Origin: Prolixibacter sp. NT017
GTDB lineage: Bacteria > Bacteroidota > Bacteroidia > Bacteroidales > Prolixibacteraceae
Length of the DNA: 64,000 nucleotides
Assembly: GCF_009617875.1 (NCBI RefSeq)
Contig: NZ_BLAV01000001.1
Location: 2,046,001-2,110,000 of the forward strand
Direction: 5' to 3'
The position numbers were made by a program, and so were the translations under genes. The notes under the pieces are model-generated. The model was not told the origin of the DNA. It worked only from the letters and a program-made list of their open reading frames with translations, and did no database searches. Positions 48,378-60,457 of this stretch are shown in pieces (the stretch's first letter is position 1; each line of letters starts with the position of its first letter).

Positions 48378-49454
48378 ATGAAAAAAGTGCGCATCCTATC
48401 GCTCGATGGCGGCGGTATCCGCGGCATGATTCCGGCTACGGTTCTGGAATACATCGAAAACCAATACATCGAAAAGAGCGGTAATCCGAATGCCCGCCTG
48501 GCCGACCTCTTCGATTTTATTATCGGGACCAGCACCGGGGGAATCCTCACCTGCTTTTACCTGACGCCCAATCCGGAAAAAGGAGAAGACCAGCCGAAGA
48601 CCAAATACAAGGCGTCACAGGCTCTGGAGTTTTATTCCGAAAAAGGCTATCGCATCTTCAATGCCTCCAAACACTATCCGTGGTTTGGTTTGCGTCAGTT
48701 GTACAACGCCAGCAAATATACCGCCCGGAACCTGGAGTCCATCTTTGCCGAAGAGTTTGGTGAGCTGAAGATGAGTGAACTAGTGAAGCCGTGTCTCGTG
48801 ACCACGTACGACCTGGCTGCCAAATCATCTTTCTTCTTCAGTAGCCGCGAACCGGAACACAAACAACGGGAGTTCTATGTGAAAGATGTGGCCCGTTCCA
48901 CCTCTGCCGCTCCTACGTACTTTCCCTCAGCCTTGATTAAAAATCTCGTCACCGGTAAGGAGATGGTGAACATCGACGGCGGTGTGTATGCCAACAACCC
49001 GACCATGTGCGGGTACGCCGAATGCCGGAATTCCGTCTTCCCGCAGGTGACTTATCCCTCAGCCGACCAGATGCTGATACTCTCCATCGGGACGGGCGGC
49101 GGACAGGTCGATTTCCCGGCATCGGAGAAAAGCGGCAACTGGGGACTGCTCAAGTGGGCCAAATCGATGCCCGACATCATGATGGACGGCAGCTTTGATA
49201 CAGTGGACTACCAGATGAAACGGTTGTTTGGCTCGCTGGCCGAAGAACATCAGTACAACTACAAACGCGTCGATGTTCCGCAGGATAAAAGAAACTATGC
49301 AAAAGATATGGCTGACGCATCGCCGGCCAATATCGAGGCACTGAAAGAGGCGGGCCAGGAAGCATTAAAGGCTGCTCAGAAAAACCATGAACAGTACAGC
49401 CTGGATAATTTCATCGACAGGCTGATGGCCAACGCGCCTGACGAAACAAACTGA
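48378..49454 (+). CDS. Patatin-like phospholipase
   Basis: 358 residues. The oxyanion loop is DGGGIRG (10-16), the nucleophile S52 is in GTSTG, and the catalytic aspartate D200 is in DGGVYANNP. These give a complete Ser-Asp dyad for a lipid acyl hydrolase. The family includes the CBASS effector CapV, but there is no cyclase, ubiquitin-like or peptidase gene beside it. It is followed after 28 bases by a CPBP-like membrane protease gene, which probably shares its transcript. Confidence 0.9.
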   Translation: MKKVRILSLDGGGIRGMIPATVLEYIENQYIEKSGNPNARLADLFDFIIGTSTGGILTCFYLTPNPEKGEDQPKTKYKASQALEFYSEKGYRIFNASKHYPWFGLRQLYNASKYTARNLESIFAEEFGELKMSELVKPCLVTTYDLAAKSSFFFSSREPEHKQREFYVKDVARSTSAAPTYFPSALIKNLVTGKEMVNIDGGVYANNPTMCGYAECRNSVFPQVTYPSADQMLILSIGTGGGQVDFPASEKSGNWGLLKWAKSMPDIMMDGSFDTVDYQMKRLFGSLAEEHQYNYKRVDVPQDKRNYAKDMADASPANIEALKEAGQEALKAAQKNHEQYSLDNFIDRLMANAPDETN

Positions 49455-50328: not shown

Positions 50329-50724
50329 ATGACCAAAACCTACAAATACAAGGAAATTACCCGAGACATTATCGGCGCTGCCATGGAAGTACACAAGACA
50401 TTGGGAAACGGTTTTCAGGAAGTCATCTATCAACGGGCGCTGGAAATCGAAATGCATAACATGGGATTGAACTTTCACCGGGAATTTGAAATGCCTATCT
50501 ATTATAAGAAGGAACACATCGGGACCCGCCGTGTCGATTTCCTGGTGGAAGAACAAATTTCAGTCGAATTAAAAGCTATCACTCAATTGGAAGACGTTCA
50601 TCTGGCGCAAGCTAAAAACTACCTGGAAGCTTATCGTATCGAGGTAGGATTACTCATTAATTTTGGCAGCAAAAGTTTGCAGTTTAAAAGATTGCTTAAT
50701 TCGAAATACAACGAAACTGTCTGA
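50329..50724 (+). CDS. GxxExxY family PD-(D/E)xK nuclease-fold protein
   Basis: 131 residues. The name-giving motif is G28-F-Q-E31-V-I-Y34, and the nuclease-like core has D70 in RRVDFLV and E80-L-K82 in SVELKA (PF13366). The biological role of the family is unknown; copies are scattered across bacteria. The last two codons and the stop lie within the left arm of an inverted repeat that bounds the next 563 bases. The gene and the repeats may belong to one element. Confidence 0.88.
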   Translation: MTKTYKYKEITRDIIGAAMEVHKTLGNGFQEVIYQRALEIEMHNMGLNFHREFEMPIYYKKEHIGTRRVDFLVEEQISVELKAITQLEDVHLAQAKNYLEAYRIEVGLLINFGSKSLQFKRLLNSKYNETV

Positions 50725-52405: not shown

Positions 52406-54142
52406 ATGACGATGACGCTTTTTAACCTCACATGGTTGAAGCATTTTCTCGCGATATTCTTCCTGACCTTCATCCACGAGGATGCTGCCATACTGGCGGC
52501 GGGGTTCTCGCGTGTCGAACATCACGTACCGCTCGTGTTGGTCTATACTGCCGTTTTCACAGGAATTGTCGCCGGCGATGTATTCATTTATCTCCTCGGA
52601 CGGTTTGCCCAAAAGAACGCCTGGCTGCGTCGCAAAATCATTGGCCCCAAGGTCGAACGCCTCCACAACTGGATTGAATCGAACCTGACAAAGGTACTCA
52701 TCATGTGCCGCCTTACACCGGGCCTCCTCTTCCCTACTTTCGTGGCCTGTGGTTGGTTTAAAATTCCACTGGGACGGTTCACCCTTCTGTCGGCCATCAC
52801 CGGTGGCGTGTATACCTCCATCGCCCTCACGCTGGTGATTGTCTTCGGCGATTTGGTGCTGGTGCACCTGAACTACTGGGCGTGGATACTCGTCGCCATC
52901 ATCGTTATTGTATTCGCCTCCACCAGCCTGCTGAAACCGAAGTTCGCCAAGGTTACCGAACGGGCCCTCGACGACGACGAAGCTCCCTCATTTTTGAAAA
53001 TGCTGAAAACATATAAGCCCGGACGGAAAAACAGGCATACCGGGATGCCGTCACCCGACGGACTGAAAAGGTTCGTCTCGCTGGCTGAACGCCTCCCCAA
53101 CGGATTATTTTATTTACCGGTCGGATTACGCTGGTTATTCCTCTCGGCGCGCTATCGCTCACTGACCCTGCCCACGGTATCGAACCCCATGATTGAAACC
53201 GGTGGTTTCTGGGGCGAGTCGAAGAGCGATATCATGGAACAGGTTGGCGACGAACACCAGCAATGGGTGGCCGAGTTTGTGACCTTCGAACGAAACGGCA
53301 AGGGCGTGGATGCCGATTTGCAGGACGCGCTTTCGCTGATGAAGAAAAAAGGCCTGGAGTTCCCGGTCGTGGTGAAGCCCGACGTGGGCTGGCAGGGATA
53401 CGGCGTGCGCCTCGTGGAAGAGGATGCACACCTGCTTCATTACCTGAATGAATACCCTACCGGGGAAAAACTGCTACTGCAGCGTCCGGTGCAACACGAC
53501 GGCGAAGCGGGTATCTTCTACGTCCGGTACCCCGGCGAGGAACACGGTAAGGTGATTTCGGTGACGCTGCGCTATTTCCCGTATGTGTATGGCGACGGAA
53601 CATCGACCCTGCGCGACCTCATCCGCAACAACCCGCGGATGAAAACCCATGCCGATTATTACCTGGGCGGAAAAACCGAGCACATGAGCCTCGAGAAGCA
53701 GTACCTCGACATGGTACCGGCCGACGGTGAACTGATTCGGTTATCGTTTATCGGGAGTATCCGCGTAGGCGGCCTCTACCGCGATGCCAGTCATTTGATT
53801 ACGCCGGAGCTGAGCGCCCGCATCGATGCCATCGCGCAAAGCATGCCGGAGTTCTACTTTGGCCGCTTCGATGTGCGCTTCGAATCGACCGAGCTGCTGC
53901 AAAAAGGCGAAGGATTTTCCATCATCGAAATCAACGGTGCCGGCTCGGAAGCCATCAGCGGCTGGGACCCCGAGGTTTCCATCTTCAAACTGTACAAAGC
54001 GTTGTTCAAATCACAGAGCCTGCTCTTCAAAGTAGGTCACCTGAACCGTTCGCGCGGGTACAAACCCATGACGGTAAAGGATTTCCTGAAAGCTGCCGCC
54101 AAACAGAACAAACTGATTGATCAGTATCCGCCGGCAAGCTAG
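52406..54142 (+). CDS. DedA/VTT membrane domain fused to an ATP-grasp ligase domain
   Basis: 578 residues. Residues about 10-185 are a DedA-family domain: EDAAILAAGF with the early acidic pair, GDVFIYLLGRFA and the RLTPGLLFPT/GWFKIPLGRF block corresponding to the RFxPG membrane motif; four to five hydrophobic segments follow. A basic linker leads to an ATP-grasp domain at about 265-560: VVVKPDVGWQGYGVRLV (nucleotide lysine near 321), LLLQRPVQHDG, YGDGTSTLRDLIRNNPR, and the metal-binding EINGAGSEA near 507. DedA proteins flip lipids such as undecaprenyl phosphate; ATP-grasp enzymes join a carboxylate to an amine. The combined role is unknown. ATG 52406 or 52412 may start it. Confidence 0.88.
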   Translation: MTMTLFNLTWLKHFLAIFFLTFIHEDAAILAAGFSRVEHHVPLVLVYTAVFTGIVAGDVFIYLLGRFAQKNAWLRRKIIGPKVERLHNWIESNLTKVLIMCRLTPGLLFPTFVACGWFKIPLGRFTLLSAITGGVYTSIALTLVIVFGDLVLVHLNYWAWILVAIIVIVFASTSLLKPKFAKVTERALDDDEAPSFLKMLKTYKPGRKNRHTGMPSPDGLKRFVSLAERLPNGLFYLPVGLRWLFLSARYRSLTLPTVSNPMIETGGFWGESKSDIMEQVGDEHQQWVAEFVTFERNGKGVDADLQDALSLMKKKGLEFPVVVKPDVGWQGYGVRLVEEDAHLLHYLNEYPTGEKLLLQRPVQHDGEAGIFYVRYPGEEHGKVISVTLRYFPYVYGDGTSTLRDLIRNNPRMKTHADYYLGGKTEHMSLEKQYLDMVPADGELIRLSFIGSIRVGGLYRDASHLITPELSARIDAIAQSMPEFYFGRFDVRFESTELLQKGEGFSIIEINGAGSEAISGWDPEVSIFKLYKALFKSQSLLFKVGHLNRSRGYKPMTVKDFLKAAAKQNKLIDQYPPAS

Positions 54143-55564: not shown

Positions 55565-57175
55565 CTATTCCTCTCCTTTGTGGTAATCGATACCATCCAG
55601 CTGCCAGCGTTGTTCCATGTTGTGCAGGGCGTCGAGAAAGCGTTGATAGTTTTTATCGGGCAGCGGCGTCCAGCCTACTTCAGCGTAAGCGGCTAACCGG
55701 GGGAATACTTTCAGATCCATCGACTTTGTGGTGGGAATCCATTCGCTCCACATCTGGCAACCGAAGCCTAATATCTTCGAATCGTACTTCGGGTCGAGTC
55801 CTTCAGGAATGGGATTGAATGAATAGGCTTTCGAAAGCCGAATCATTTTATAGTTATAATCGAGATATGTCATCCGGTGGTAAGCATTCACCACATCGTA
55901 GCCATTCGAAACCGCCTTGTTGATCAAATCGAGGCTCCCTTTCCAGAATTCGATGATAGCCGATTTGGCGAGCGTCTGTTTTACCTGCGTATCGGCCGAA
56001 TCCTGCCACTCATGCACGTTATCGCCGAGGATTTCGTTCCATCCCATCATGCGATGACCCGTGCTATCGACGAACTGCGAGATGCGGTTGGTGAACCAGA
56101 TTTGCAAATCGGCGGGAGACGTCAGTCCCTCCTTCTTCATCAACGCCTGCATGGCTTTCGATTTCTTCCACGCGTCGTACATCACTTCATCACCCCCGAT
56201 ATGGACCACCTTACCGGGAAACAGGTTGAAAACTTCGGTAAGCACATCCTCGAGGAATTGAATAACGCGCGGATCGGCAATGTTAAACGAGTCGGGCAGC
56301 TTGCCAAATCTCACCGGAACCTCTTTCGTGGTTCCCAACACCCCGAGCCACGGATAAGCCGCAATGGCCGCCGAAGCATGACCGGGCATTTCAATCTCCG
56401 GAACGATGCGAATGTGCCGAGCGGTGGCGTAGGCGATGATATCCTTGATTTGCTCCTGCGTATAGAAACCGCTGTGTGGCTTCCCTTCGCGTTTGTCGCT
56501 GTGGCGGGCTGCCTGCGTGTCTTTCCGGTAGCCGCCCACCGACGTCAGTTTCGGATACTTCTTGATTTCGATGCGCCATCCCTGGTCATCGGTCAGGTGC
56601 CAGTGGAAGACGTTCATTTTCATCAGCGCCATCTGGTCGAGCATACTCTTCACCACATCCACACCTTTGAAATGACGCGATACATCGAGCATAAATCCCC
56701 GCCATGCAAACCGCGGCTTATCGGCAATGGCCACCACCGGAACGGCAGCGTTTTTTCCCTTTTCGGGATGGAACTCAAATGCGGGTGGCAACAGCTGCCG
56801 CAACGACTGGATGCCGTAAAATACGCCGGTACGGGTCGCCCCTTCGATGACAATCCGTTTGGGCTCTACCTTCAGCAGGTAACCTTCGTCGCCCAGCGAG
56901 TCTTTCAGGGTTGCATTCAGCTTCAGCTCGATGCCTTTGCCTTTCGCTTTAATGTGCGGCTTTTCGCCGAAGGCTTTCGCCAGGATACCTGCCAGGTAAG
57001 CGGCTTCGGATTGGGTTGCCTCGCCCGAAACAATGGCCGTCTTCTCCGTCAGGGTGTAGGTACCGTTGCCGGGCACCACGCTCACCGGACGCGGAATGAT
57101 GTTGATCTCCGCCTGCGCGGAAACAGCAACGCCCGCGAGGATGAAAAAGGCCAGTATGAATTTCATTGTTTTCAT
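55565..57175 (-). CDS. GH20 beta-N-acetylhexosaminidase
   Basis: 536 residues from ATG 57175, with a signal peptide ending VSAQA. Residues about 25-150 are the GH20 N-terminal alpha/beta domain (INIIPRPVSVVPG), then the TIM barrel with RGFMLDVSRHF, FHWHLTDDQGWR and the catalytic VHIGGDEVMYD (Asp-Glu pair), plus a tryptophan-rich end (QMWSEWIP). It releases terminal GlcNAc or GalNAc from glycans in the periplasm. It is the last gene of the glycan operon, 155 bases after the NagX-like gene. ATG 57166 is an alternative start. Confidence 0.93.
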   Translation of the reverse strand: MKTMKFILAFFILAGVAVSAQAEINIIPRPVSVVPGNGTYTLTEKTAIVSGEATQSEAAYLAGILAKAFGEKPHIKAKGKGIELKLNATLKDSLGDEGYLLKVEPKRIVIEGATRTGVFYGIQSLRQLLPPAFEFHPEKGKNAAVPVVAIADKPRFAWRGFMLDVSRHFKGVDVVKSMLDQMALMKMNVFHWHLTDDQGWRIEIKKYPKLTSVGGYRKDTQAARHSDKREGKPHSGFYTQEQIKDIIAYATARHIRIVPEIEMPGHASAAIAAYPWLGVLGTTKEVPVRFGKLPDSFNIADPRVIQFLEDVLTEVFNLFPGKVVHIGGDEVMYDAWKKSKAMQALMKKEGLTSPADLQIWFTNRISQFVDSTGHRMMGWNEILGDNVHEWQDSADTQVKQTLAKSAIIEFWKGSLDLINKAVSNGYDVVNAYHRMTYLDYNYKMIRLSKAYSFNPIPEGLDPKYDSKILGFGCQMWSEWIPTTKSMDLKVFPRLAAYAEVGWTPLPDKNYQRFLDALHNMEQRWQLDGIDYHKGEE

Positions 57176-57372
57176 AACCGTTTTGTTTTTTATGGGTTGA
57201 TGGGGAAGAGAATACAAATGGTGAATTCGGATAGAAAGCCCACCGTAACAATCACCCCCACCCCCCGATTTCTCGGGGCTCCCCTGAACGGGAGGCTAGG
57301 GCAACTACAGGTGTTGAACACGTTACATGATTCACTGCTTACTACTAACCAAACATCTTTTTTCTTTTCCCT

Positions 57373-58503
57373 TTATACTTTCAGGAATATCTTTTTCCGG
57401 TACAAAATGTACAGGAACGCCCACACGCAGGCTACGTACCCGACGGCACCGATGAGCCCCGCGATATGATGGGGCGTGAGATGCATCAATCCGCCGAAGA
57501 AGAAGTTGCGCATGTTGCCGAAATCGACGATTTTGTACTGCACTAAATAGATGGTGATGGGGTTCAATCCAATCACCACGAAGAAGAATGCCCACTTTTT
57601 GAAGCCCCACACGTCGATGATGAGGTAAAACACCCCCAACAGGATGAGACTCCATCCGCCGGCATAGAGCATGAATGAACTGGTCCACAATTTCTTGATA
57701 ATGGGAAACCACAATCCCCACAATTCACCGAGTCCCAGCGATACAATGCCCGCACCAATCAGGATGAGCCCTTTCCGCAGCTTGCTCAAACGAACATCTT
57801 CTGAAATAAGCAACCTCCCGGCAAAAACACCCAATAACGCCGTACTTATTGAGGGGATGGTGCTCAAAACACCTTCTGGCTCCATCACTTTCATGTATAA
57901 CGTACCCGGAATCAGCAGACGATCGATAAGGCCTGCGAGGTTTCCTTCCGGTGTGAGCACGCCTGCACCGAATCCCGGAACGGGAATGTACAGCATCATG
58001 AGACAATACGCCAGCAACAGGCCCCAGAACCAGATGATCTGCGCGCGCAGGTTCGTATTCAGGTAGATAATGGCGGCAAAGAACCAGGCAATCCCGATGC
58101 GTCCCAGCACACTTCCCACCCGGAAATGCTCAGCGTCGAGATTGAGAATGCGGTTGTATAGCATTCCGAGGACAATCAGCCACATCATCCGTTTAAACGC
58201 GTGTTTATAGATGCTTACTTTCGAATCACCGCGGGCCAGCCGTTTCCCAAAGGAGAAAGGCATGGAAACACCAGCGAGAAACAGGAAGAGCGGGAATATC
58301 AAATCGTAGAATTGGAAACCCTCCCACTTCACATGATCCATCTGCCCGTGTAAATATTTAAACAGCGGCCATCCGGTCAGGGTTGCCAGGGCATGTATGA
58401 CCCGCTGCCCACCGGTAATCCAAAACATATCGAACCCACGAAGTGCATCAAGCGACAACAGGCGCTGCCGCTTCGGTGTACCGTTCATCTCTTTCATGTG
58501 CAT
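57373..58503 (-). CDS. NagX/HGSNAT-like membrane acyltransferase (DUF5009)
   Basis: 376 residues, about ten hydrophobic helices. The start RLLSLDALRGFDMFWI is the family signature, and the conserved histidine and aspartate of the acyl transfer site lie in HGQMDHVKWEGFQFYDLIFPLFLF. Relatives are heparan-alpha-glucosaminide N-acetyltransferase and NagX, which is linked to chitooligosaccharide/GlcNAc use in bacteria. It would acetylate glucosamine-containing sugars across the membrane. ATGs at 58503 and 58491/58497 are possible. It is 18 bases after the GH16-like gene in the operon. Confidence 0.85.
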   Translation of the reverse strand: MHMKEMNGTPKRQRLLSLDALRGFDMFWITGGQRVIHALATLTGWPLFKYLHGQMDHVKWEGFQFYDLIFPLFLFLAGVSMPFSFGKRLARGDSKVSIYKHAFKRMMWLIVLGMLYNRILNLDAEHFRVGSVLGRIGIAWFFAAIIYLNTNLRAQIIWFWGLLLAYCLMMLYIPVPGFGAGVLTPEGNLAGLIDRLLIPGTLYMKVMEPEGVLSTIPSISTALLGVFAGRLLISEDVRLSKLRKGLILIGAGIVSLGLGELWGLWFPIIKKLWTSSFMLYAGGWSLILLGVFYLIIDVWGFKKWAFFFVVIGLNPITIYLVQYKIVDFGNMRNFFFGGLMHLTPHHIAGLIGAVGYVACVWAFLYILYRKKIFLKV

Positions 58504-58521
58504 AGCGTTTATCGGTTGGAT

Positions 58522-59283
58522 TTACTTCCGGAATTCGAAGCCGGAGAGGACCATTTCTACCTCTTTGCCATCGGTCGGAGGATTTCCGCGGTACAGCCAC
58601 AGGTTGATCTTCGCAGCCTCCTTGCCGGGCTTCGGATTGTCGGCGCCGGTATAAGTCCATTGTGTCATCAGCTGATCCACCGGTGGATTATCGCCGACGT
58701 TCCCCTGATAGCTGGCAAACACCACGCTGTCAGGTTGCCAGTTAAACCAATGCGTCGACTGCTCCCCGGTTTGATCGAGATAATAGCGGTGATGATTGCC
58801 CGGATGCCACCCTGGCTGAATCACAAACTGCGAATCTTCGGTGGTGTCTTTGGCCCACTTCGAAAACTCGATATCAATTTCGGAGCTATCATTGGCATAG
58901 GTGAACAGCCCTCCAACTACATTCTTGTCGAAACCATCTACCCGGCTGGCTACATGAAAGATGTACGTTCCGTAACCATGCGATTCCAGCAGGGAAATCT
59001 TGGCGCAGTTCCACCGTCCGTCGCGGTGGGTAATTTTCAGGTGCAAATTCCCGCTGTCATCTAGCCATACGTTCTCTTTGGAATCAGAAAAGTAGTTGGG
59101 ACCCGGTCCCTGCCTTGTATCTTTGCTGTTCCCCACCCGCCAGTCGTAGCCGGAGAAGTGAATAATACGCGTACCGTCGACCATCCGGTCGTTATTTACA
59201 GTCTTTTTGGTTTTGTTCCCGCATCCGGCAAGAAACAGGACAGCTACGACCAGAAAAATCCAGTTAGTTTTCATCTTTTTCAT
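58522..59283 (-). CDS. GH16-like lipoprotein
   Basis: 253 residues from ATG 59283 (or 59274). The lipobox is LFLAGC (C21). The jelly-roll core has GPNYFSDSKENVWLD, HGYGTYIFHVASRVDGFDKNVV-type sequence and the catalytic EIDIEF (E-x-D-x-E), the GH16 signature. GH16 enzymes endo-cleave beta-1,3/1,4-glucans or galactans, including endo-beta-galactosidases acting on keratan and mucin O-glycans. With GH20, NagA and a sialate esterase in the same operon, a LacNAc-type host glycan is a reasonable guess. Its start overlaps the end of the nagA-like gene. Confidence 0.78.
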   Translation of the reverse strand: MKKMKTNWIFLVVAVLFLAGCGNKTKKTVNNDRMVDGTRIIHFSGYDWRVGNSKDTRQGPGPNYFSDSKENVWLDDSGNLHLKITHRDGRWNCAKISLLESHGYGTYIFHVASRVDGFDKNVVGGLFTYANDSSEIDIEFSKWAKDTTEDSQFVIQPGWHPGNHHRYYLDQTGEQSTHWFNWQPDSVVFASYQGNVGDNPPVDQLMTQWTYTGADNPKPGKEAAKINLWLYRGNPPTDGKEVEMVLSGFEFRK

Positions 59284-60457
59284 TTTTTGTTTGGTTAAAC
59301 ACGACCTTTCCGGCCCGGATGGTTTGTACAATCTCCATCCCTTTTTCGGTTTGTTCGTACAGCACCAGGTCAGCAGGCGAACCTTTGCGGAAAGGTATTT
59401 GCGATTCTCCCTGCAACAGCTCCATCGGCTTGAGCGAGGCTTTGTTCCATGCCGTTTCCAACGTCAGTAATTCCTTCCCTGCCATCTGATTAACGCACCA
59501 CAGCAGCGATTGCGCCGAACCGGCCAGCAATTTCGGTTGATCGGCCATGCAAAGACGGCCTTCCGGGCTGAGAATCACATCTCCGCCGATATGACTATGG
59601 TAGTTCCCCGGCGGCAAACCGGCAAAATGGGTACAATCACTTATCAGGATGGAGGTTTCGGGCTTCACCTTGAAAACAACCTTGAGAAAGGACTCGGGCA
59701 GGTGAAAACCGTCCCCAATGACGGTGGTCCACAACGCATCCTGTGCCAACTGTTCCCAAATGTAGTTGGGATGGCGTGGCAACATCAGGTGAGCGGCATT
59801 CCCCAGGTGCGTCGACAACCGTGCACCAGTGGCAACCGCTCCGGCAATCTGTTCCGGTGTCGCCCCCGTATGGCCTATGGACACCACAACGCCGCTTTCG
59901 CTGCAACGGGAGATGAACTCTTCCGATCCTTCCCATTCCGGCGAAAGGGTGATAATTTTAATTCGTCCCTCAGCGGCTTCCTGCCACTGCTGAAACAAGT
60001 CCCAGTCGGGTTTTCGCACTAACTCCGGGTCATGTGCCCCGCGAGCGCCTTCTTCTTTCGATAGAAACGGCCCTTCGAGGTGAATACCGCCAATGGCTGC
60101 ATCGACATCGGGGTACGAATGACAGGCGGAGACAATCACTTTCAGCGCTTCGGAAATCGCTTGCGGGGTATTCGTGATCAAGGTCGGGAAGAAGGTCGTT
60201 ACGCCTTGCTCCGCCAGCAACTGAACCGCACGATAAACATCGGACGCCAGTAACGGAGCGGTATTGAAATCGACACCGCCGTAACCGTTTACCTGCAAGT
60301 CCACTAAACCGGGCGCGATAAAAGGGTGTTTCCCCTTCCCTTCCGGAAGTTGAATCACTTCGGCTATCTTTCCGTCGCGAATACCGATGTGCACCAGTTT
60401 TCCGCTCCGGTAATCGAGGCCTTCGAGGTACATGTGGTTGTCGTTTGATTGGTTCAT
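59264..60457 (-). CDS. nagA: N-acetylglucosamine-6-phosphate deacetylase
   Basis: 397 residues of the amidohydrolase superfamily. FIAPGLVDLQVNGYGGVDFN, GIHLEGPFLSKEEGARGAH, VSIGHTGATPEQI, STHLGNAAH and the catalytic aspartate in LISDCTHFAG follow the NagA order, although THLGNAA and SDCTHF differ from the usual THLFNAM and TDA. It turns GlcNAc-6-P into GlcN-6-P. The partner deaminase nagB is not in the window. Divergence at these sites leaves open another N-acyl-sugar substrate. Confidence 0.85.
   Translation of the reverse strand: MNQSNDNHMYLEGLDYRSGKLVHIGIRDGKIAEVIQLPEGKGKHPFIAPGLVDLQVNGYGGVDFNTAPLLASDVYRAVQLLAEQGVTTFFPTLITNTPQAISEALKVIVSACHSYPDVDAAIGGIHLEGPFLSKEEGARGAHDPELVRKPDWDLFQQWQEAAEGRIKIITLSPEWEGSEEFISRCSESGVVVSIGHTGATPEQIAGAVATGARLSTHLGNAAHLMLPRHPNYIWEQLAQDALWTTVIGDGFHLPESFLKVVFKVKPETSILISDCTHFAGLPPGNYHSHIGGDVILSPEGRLCMADQPKLLAGSAQSLLWCVNQMAGKELLTLETAWNKASLKPMELLQGESQIPFRKGSPADLVLYEQTEKGMEIVQTIRAGKVVFNQTKNEKDEN

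Follow-up and report, generated by a model that had tools for sequence, protein, structure and literature searches.

Several described ligases have folds close to the ATP-grasp domain considered here, namely cyanophycin synthetase, RimK, LysX/ArgX and D-Ala-D-Ala ligase; their substrates are peptides or amino acids, and they are not known to carry a DedA domain. MprF, the aminoacyl-phosphatidylglycerol synthase and flippase, may be viewed as an analogue in its mode of action, in that it combines amino acid addition to a lipid head group with a flippase in a single protein; it uses aminoacyl-tRNA as donor and forms esters on phosphatidylglycerol, and its domains are unrelated to those of the DedA–ATP-grasp fusion. 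Bacteria that make aminolipids can get by with less phospholipid, and Toll-like receptors are among the targets of some of these lipids; a cerilipin-type ornithine-taurine lipid was first reported in 1976.

The DedA family includes undecaprenyl-phosphate flippases; in those of COG0586 both arginines at the tip of the second re-entrant segment are essential, and a DedA group nearly devoid of positive tip residues may move uncharged or positively charged lipids (PMC10127716). The main text of that study names DedA fusions with rhodanese, PAP2 and pyridine-nucleotide-disulfide domains, and ATP-grasp zero times. OlsBA, OlsF and GlsBA acylate the amino group and the hydroxyl of aminolipids (PMC11631085, PMC10191378), with PF13444 as the common domain of the N-acyltransferases (PMC11631085). 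Two kinds of two-part head group are known, serine-glycine and taurine-ornithine (PMC12493201), and a glycine-serine-ornithine tripeptide lipid comes from Chitinophaga (PMC8433624). The flavolipin pathway has been called unknown, the suggested route being addition of serine to a glycine lipid (PMC10191378), and taurine transfer to ornithine lipid is mentioned with no enzyme name (PMC12493201). The available portions of the open-licence literature name no enzyme for adding a second amino compound to ornithine or glycine lipid heads, and hold no account of a DedA–ATP-grasp fusion or of an ATP-grasp enzyme acting on an aminolipid head group. The gene described here joins known domains in a new combination, for what seems to be a step in aminolipid synthesis that still lacks an assigned enzyme.

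The fusion gene and its domains

The window (the whole stretch of 64,000 nucleotides of Prolixibacter sp. NT017 DNA that was analysed) carries one gene in which a membrane DedA domain is followed by an ATP-grasp domain. Its features, in window coordinates, are:

52406..54142, + strand: DedA–ATP-grasp fusion gene, 578 aa, a single open frame
52427..52924, + strand: DedA/VTT membrane domain, residues 8-173 (Pfam VTT_dom, E 1.9e-10, residues 42-135)
52478..52483, + strand: E25-D26, acidic pair in the first re-entrant segment of DedA; ED in 31/31 fused proteins
52709..52729, + strand: R102 to L108, tip of the second re-entrant segment, RxxPGx(L); of the two Arg only the first is retained
52925..53080, + strand: linker, residues 174-225; mostly low confidence, with pLDDT <50 at 174-194 and 196-200
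53081..54139, + strand: ATP-grasp domain, residues 226-578, from fold and sequence matches; pLDDT mostly >90
53099..53155, + strand: hydrophobic first helix of the ATP-grasp domain, residues 232-250, a helix in the AlphaFold2 model
53375..53377, + strand: K324, ATP-binding lysine of KPDxGxxG; 56/56, aligns with the cyanophycin synthetase KP..G..G lysine
53864..53872, + strand: R487 and D489 (GRFD); invariant, 56/56
53927..53935, + strand: E508-I509-N510, metal-binding E-x-N; E508 and N510 56/56, aligns with EIN of cyanophycin synthetase 2

The frame of 52406-54142 is one real gene under purifying selection: full-length copies with 94-99% identity are present in three congeners, against which the window gene has dN/dS values of ~0.02, ~0.07 and ~0.09. 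The uninterrupted frame read in the initial annotation is thus borne out, and both full-length homologues and adjacent separate gene pairs were found (see below). GC content is ~0.55-0.57 within the gene, against 0.40 immediately before it and 0.46 downstream; positions 56000-57500 resemble the fusion gene in this respect, and base composition decides nothing. A search of the 64-kb window for tRNA genes found none.

The AlphaFold2 model of the whole chain has a mean pLDDT of 90, with confident helices in the DedA domain (dropping to 72-75 at residues 151-170). The window protein scores above the Pfam cut-off for PF09335 (DedA/VTT; 41.7 vs 33.9 bits). Among the structural matches listed there was no solved structure for the DedA part, which was not queried on its own. 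The C-terminal part has the ATP-grasp fold, and its best structural and sequence match is the ATP-grasp domain of cyanophycin synthetase (CphA1/CphA2), with which it shares the KP..G..G lysine and E-x-N; RimK, LysX/ArgX and D-Ala-D-Ala ligase are other near folds. These likenesses are distant, with no more than 16% of 279 aligned residues identical to 7wae_A. The score against TIGR02068 (cyanophycin synthetase) is 29.5 bits, short of the equivalog cut-off of 850 and limited to residues 315-512, and that against PF08443 (RimK) is 15.4 bits, short of the cut-off of 21, which one relative (L031) exceeds with 28.7. The helix at residues 232-250 is possibly membrane-associating; among 100 ATP-grasp domains of the family, the most hydrophobic 19-residue stretch lies within the first 45 residues in 66 and elsewhere in 34.

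Conservation of the active site and DedA motifs

Conservation was assessed in an alignment of 56 proteins selected from the loci at hand, of which 31 fused rows cover the DedA positions. K273, K324, E367, R374, R487, D489, E508 and N510 are identical in all 56 proteins. From the alignment, K324, D489, E508 and N510 are assigned as the ATP-grasp lysine, the metal-binding acid and the E-x-N; the lysine and metal site that had been described as intact are therefore invariant in the family as sampled.

In its DedA part the window protein shares with the COG0586 flippases (UptA, YghB, YqjA) the VTT domain, the acidic pair (E25-D26 was equated with the proton-binding acids of COG0586 by visual alignment) and the first tip arginine, R102, which is kept in 31/31 fused rows. 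Unlike those flippases, the clade of the window gene lacks the second arginine and has DedA fused to ATP-grasp. Position 108 is L or V in 12/12 fused rows of the window clade and R in the remaining 19/19. One of the two arginines is retained, and the window clade thus matches the near-uncharged DedA group of PMC10127716 only in part. A role as undecaprenyl-phosphate flippase is disfavoured for the window-clade DedA, the second arginine being gone in 12/12 fused clade rows.

Distribution and domain architectures

The fusion recurs in the genus and family of the window organism, in Rhizobiales, Lentisphaerae, Acidobacteria and Planctomycetes. Within Prolixibacteraceae, fused relatives occur in two other genera (51 and 54% identity), and a third has a partial copy (57% identity) that ends at a contig edge. 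ATP-grasp homologues are carried by 11/149 genomes of window relatives (window genome included), 4 of the 11 having only standalone forms with 31-32% identity.

A scan of named species gave at least 417 confirmed relatives, ranked by similarity to the whole fusion; this ranking inflates the share of DedA among the best 80, in which 17 loci fuse DedA and ATP-grasp, a three-part fusion of alpha/beta-hydrolase, DedA and ATP-grasp is seen in 7, a separate DedA gene lies ≤2 kb away in 36 (for 35 of these the gap is at most 80 bases or the ORF ends overlap), and the same test shows no DedA in 20. DedA and ATP-grasp are adjacent separate genes in many Acetobacteraceae and in all three named Vibrionaceae loci.

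Among 395 genomes sampled from the Bacteroidota, 71 carry the ATP-grasp domain, counting strong ATP-grasp matches and leaving out 20 of 91 genomes with DedA only or a weak ATP-grasp match. Gene content was the basis for taking the phylum of this sample as Bacteroidota and the window's class as Bacteroidia. All 30 carriers outside the window's class have frames of 812-911 aa that match DedA plus ATP-grasp; an alpha/beta-hydrolase part is present in the six loci of this long build that were fetched (L031-L036; Pfam-tested in L031). The 40 other carriers of the window's class (Bacteroidia) mostly have a standalone protein of 340-400 aa. At 12 such standalone loci (L037-L047, L050) a DinB-like gene is near in 9 and a TANGO2 gene in 8. 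ATP-grasp is itself fused to TANGO2 at L043 and L044 and to a LysE-like protein at L047, and L046 has two ATP-grasp paralogues close together. At L048 an alpha/beta-hydrolase+DedA protein lies beside a PlsC-type gene in a genome with neither the ATP-grasp part nor a match to it, so hydrolase and DedA domains also travel without ATP-grasp.

A tree of 100 ATP-grasp domains places the window copy in a 13-row group (support 100/96), together with nine Rhizobiales and one MAG each of Bacteroidota, Lentisphaerae and Thiohalocapsa. The group sits in a mainly proteobacterial part of the tree, apart from the standalone proteins of the window's own class. The simplest reading is that the window gene was probably gained horizontally by an ancestor within its family.

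This probable horizontal origin, with the window gene grouping among proteobacterial copies, and the uninformative neighbours of that gene would both suit a chance fusion with no function, which we rejected as extremely improbable: dN/dS is ~0.02-0.09, the active site is invariant, relatives are widespread, and DedA is fused or adjacent in 60/80 of the best loci (of at least 417, in a ranking that favours DedA). The search for full-length homologues and gene pairs thus places the fusion well beyond one genome, with a conserved active site.

Linkage to aminolipid genes

The six fetched three-domain loci encode a PF13444 N-acyltransferase in 6/6 cases, a PlsC-type acyltransferase in 5/6 and a DinB-like protein in 5/6; at L035, NCBIfam matches the N-acyltransferase to OlsB and the PlsC-type protein to OlsA, both below cut-off. 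In all 30 phylum carriers outside the window's class, PF13444 lies ~3.0-4.3 kb from ATP-grasp on the same contig. Across the phylum sample, PF13444 is present in 56/71 carriers vs 115/324 non-carriers, and across 150 Vibrionaceae genomes, 62 of which carry ATP-grasp (3 broken or partial), in 61/62 carriers vs 51/88 non-carriers; in at least 54 of the 62 it lies within 5 kb, mostly in OlsF-sized frames. Among window relatives, OlsF is found in 11/11 carriers vs 79/138 non-carriers (one-sided p 0.003; Fisher tests and all co-occurrence counts given here ignore phylogeny). In the best 80 of at least 417 named loci, PF13444 is within 10 kb in 20 and ≤2.7 kb away in 19 (BLAST and profile). Of the 60 named loci with no local PF13444, 50 genomes were searched and 48 have PF13444 elsewhere; the other two are MAGs (2.7 and 0.6 Mb). 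Because OlsB is widespread among alphaproteobacteria, this count is weak there.

Physical linkage to PF13444/OlsF genes, present in many relatives, is absent at the window gene. In the window, a search for marker genes found only the fusion itself, and at none of 12 window-clade loci did the fusion prove to have a PF13444, DinB-like or TANGO2 gene close by; nor was a PF13444 gene found near nine loci of window relatives or the 12 standalone Bacteroidia-type loci. The window genome does encode an OlsF-like protein of 604 aa at C1:3079151-3080962 (= L133:9152-10966; E 2e-123, 412.8 bits, below the NCBIfam equivalog cut-off of 620), as well as a GlsB/GlsA pair near C1:4841400-4843300 (L134:8411-10291), both members of which pass NCBIfam cut-offs.

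PF13444 is not strictly required, being absent at E 0.001 from 15/71 phylum carriers, and strict dependence was rejected on this count. Conversely, five genomes of the window's order in the phylum sample all have PF13444 and all lack ATP-grasp, so aminolipid synthesis does not need ATP-grasp. The 15 carriers without PF13444 could suggest that ATP-grasp itself activates fatty acids and N-acylates amino acids in place of PF13444 enzymes, a chemistry stated for acyl-histidine formation in Legionella (PMC11631085); as a PF13444 N-acyltransferase is found in most carriers, often adjoining, that step would be redundant, and we regard this reading as very unlikely.

The OlsBA, OlsF and GlsBA genes are linked to, or co-occur with, much of the DedA–ATP-grasp family, and their products do not extend the carboxyl end, unlike the reaction that we propose for the fusion. 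The linked gene set suggests that the free alpha-carboxylate left by these enzymes is activated and then amidated. A lipid-linked ligase role, as first proposed from the frame and its domains, is supported in kind by this neighbourhood in much of the family. The lipids then named, undecaprenyl phosphate or phosphatidylethanolamine, find no support because the linked genes encode ornithine- and glycine-lipid acyltransferases and, for undecaprenyl phosphate, because one of the two arginines essential in flippases of that lipid (PMC10127716) is missing from the window-clade DedA; the initial annotation was thus right in kind and probably wrong in lipid.

A LysE-like protein is encoded nearby or fused in 8/12 of the standalone Bacteroidia-type loci (Pfam LysE score below cut-off), and LysE proteins export small molecules. 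This would fit an ATP-grasp enzyme whose product is a soluble or small N-acyl compound or dipeptide, with DedA as a mere anchor or exporter. Such a role is unlikely: the ED pair and R102 are kept in 31/31 fused rows, and DedA is thus not decaying into an anchor; where present, the linked PF13444 and PlsC-type acyltransferases point to diacylated lipids.

Other gene neighbourhoods

The window neighbours (patatin, PD-(D/E)XK, unknown proteins, amidohydrolase) suggest no pathway. Upstream of the fusion gene are a patatin-like phospholipase (48378-49454, E 1e-23) and a PD-(D/E)XK superfamily protein (50329-50724, PDDEXK_3, E 9e-39). A run on the - strand at 55565-60457 holds putative genes for GlcNAc/chitin use, with beta-hexosaminidase, NagX-like, GH16-like and NagA-like members, of which only the amidohydrolase is Pfam-supported.

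Other neighbourhoods recur in single taxa. The nine Rhizobiales loci (L053-L061), over the stretches fetched, have a FabZ-like gene in 9/9, ketosynthase genes in 7 and 8 of 9 and an LpxXL-like gene in 6/9 (Pfam FabA and Lip_A_acyltrans confirmed on two genes, one each), a set that we take to be the cluster for very-long-chain lipid A fatty-acid synthesis. Of the best 80 of at least 417 named loci, 22 include a BacA-like gene and 19 an MlaD-like gene, nearly all in Acetobacteraceae and relatives (one of each Pfam-tested). Many DedA/ATP-grasp pairs in L066-L127, mostly Acetobacteraceae, are also near amino-acid permease-like genes, and a Rieske plus ferric-reductase-like membrane protein recurs near ATP-grasp (L068, L111, L122, L126, L129, L154; Pfam-tested on L068 and L154).

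The FabZ-like, ketosynthase and LpxXL-like genes of Rhizobiales and the BacA-like and MlaD-like genes of Acetobacteraceae could indicate a ligase for some other lipid or carrier of the envelope (lipid A, an undecaprenyl-linked sugar or a phospholipid), with DedA handling that lipid, and undecaprenyl-phosphate flippases are indeed known among DedA proteins (PMC10127716). We consider this unlikely. The lipid A and BacA/MlaD neighbourhoods are each found in single taxa only and may reflect common synteny, while linkage to aminolipid genes recurs in different phyla; against the undecaprenyl-carrier version stands the missing second arginine of the window clade.

Proposed reaction and its meaning

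We lean, by a little, towards the fusion being a carboxylate–amine ligase that is bound to the membrane, acts on acyloxyacyl aminolipids and is coupled to a DedA domain that moves lipids. Behind this reading are the observed fusion or adjacency of DedA and ATP-grasp, the intact active site, the fold of peptide-forming ligases, purifying selection and the linkage of large parts of the family to aminolipid acyltransferases. In the proposed sequence, OlsF, OlsBA or GlsBA would first yield, in the cytosolic leaflet, an ornithine or glycine lipid whose alpha-carboxylate is free. The membrane-held ATP-grasp domain would then phosphorylate that carboxylate with ATP to an acyl phosphate, and attack by a further small amine, be it taurine, serine or some other amino acid, would give an amide and hence a two-part head, e.g., ornithine-taurine (cerilipin) or glycine-serine (flavolipin). 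Finally, the DedA domain would carry either the substrate or the product with its lengthened head to the other side of the inner membrane. The identities of the lipid substrate and of the nucleophile, as well as flipping and its direction, are presumed here, and we choose no nucleophile with confidence; the window copy would share the role of its aminolipid-linked relatives.

Gluconobacter cerinus is reported as a maker of ornithine-taurine lipid (PMC4484230), a report at the species level; strain NBRC 3267, connected here through its genes alone, has an adjacent DedA and ATP-grasp pair (L083) and PF13444 elsewhere in its genome (G422). Gly-Ser lipids are reported from Bacteroides and Porphyromonas (PMC10191378), and together with the same-order genomes that lack ATP-grasp this indicates that the enzyme is probably not a general serine ligase. 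Its candidacy as such for flavolipin is weakened, five same-order genomes having PF13444 and no ATP-grasp.

More broadly, and with confidence somewhat short of even, we suggest that a widespread family of DedA-coupled ATP-grasp proteins may build two-part heads on phosphorus-free aminolipids and move them across the membrane, as a one-protein synthase-flippase behind cerilipin-type ornithine-taurine and related dipeptide lipids. If true, this would provide a testable gene for head-group steps of this kind in Gluconobacter, Vibrionaceae, Acidobacteria, Planctomycetes and some Flavobacterium-like bacteria, as well as a subgroup of DedA proteins for which the partner enzyme hints at the cargo.
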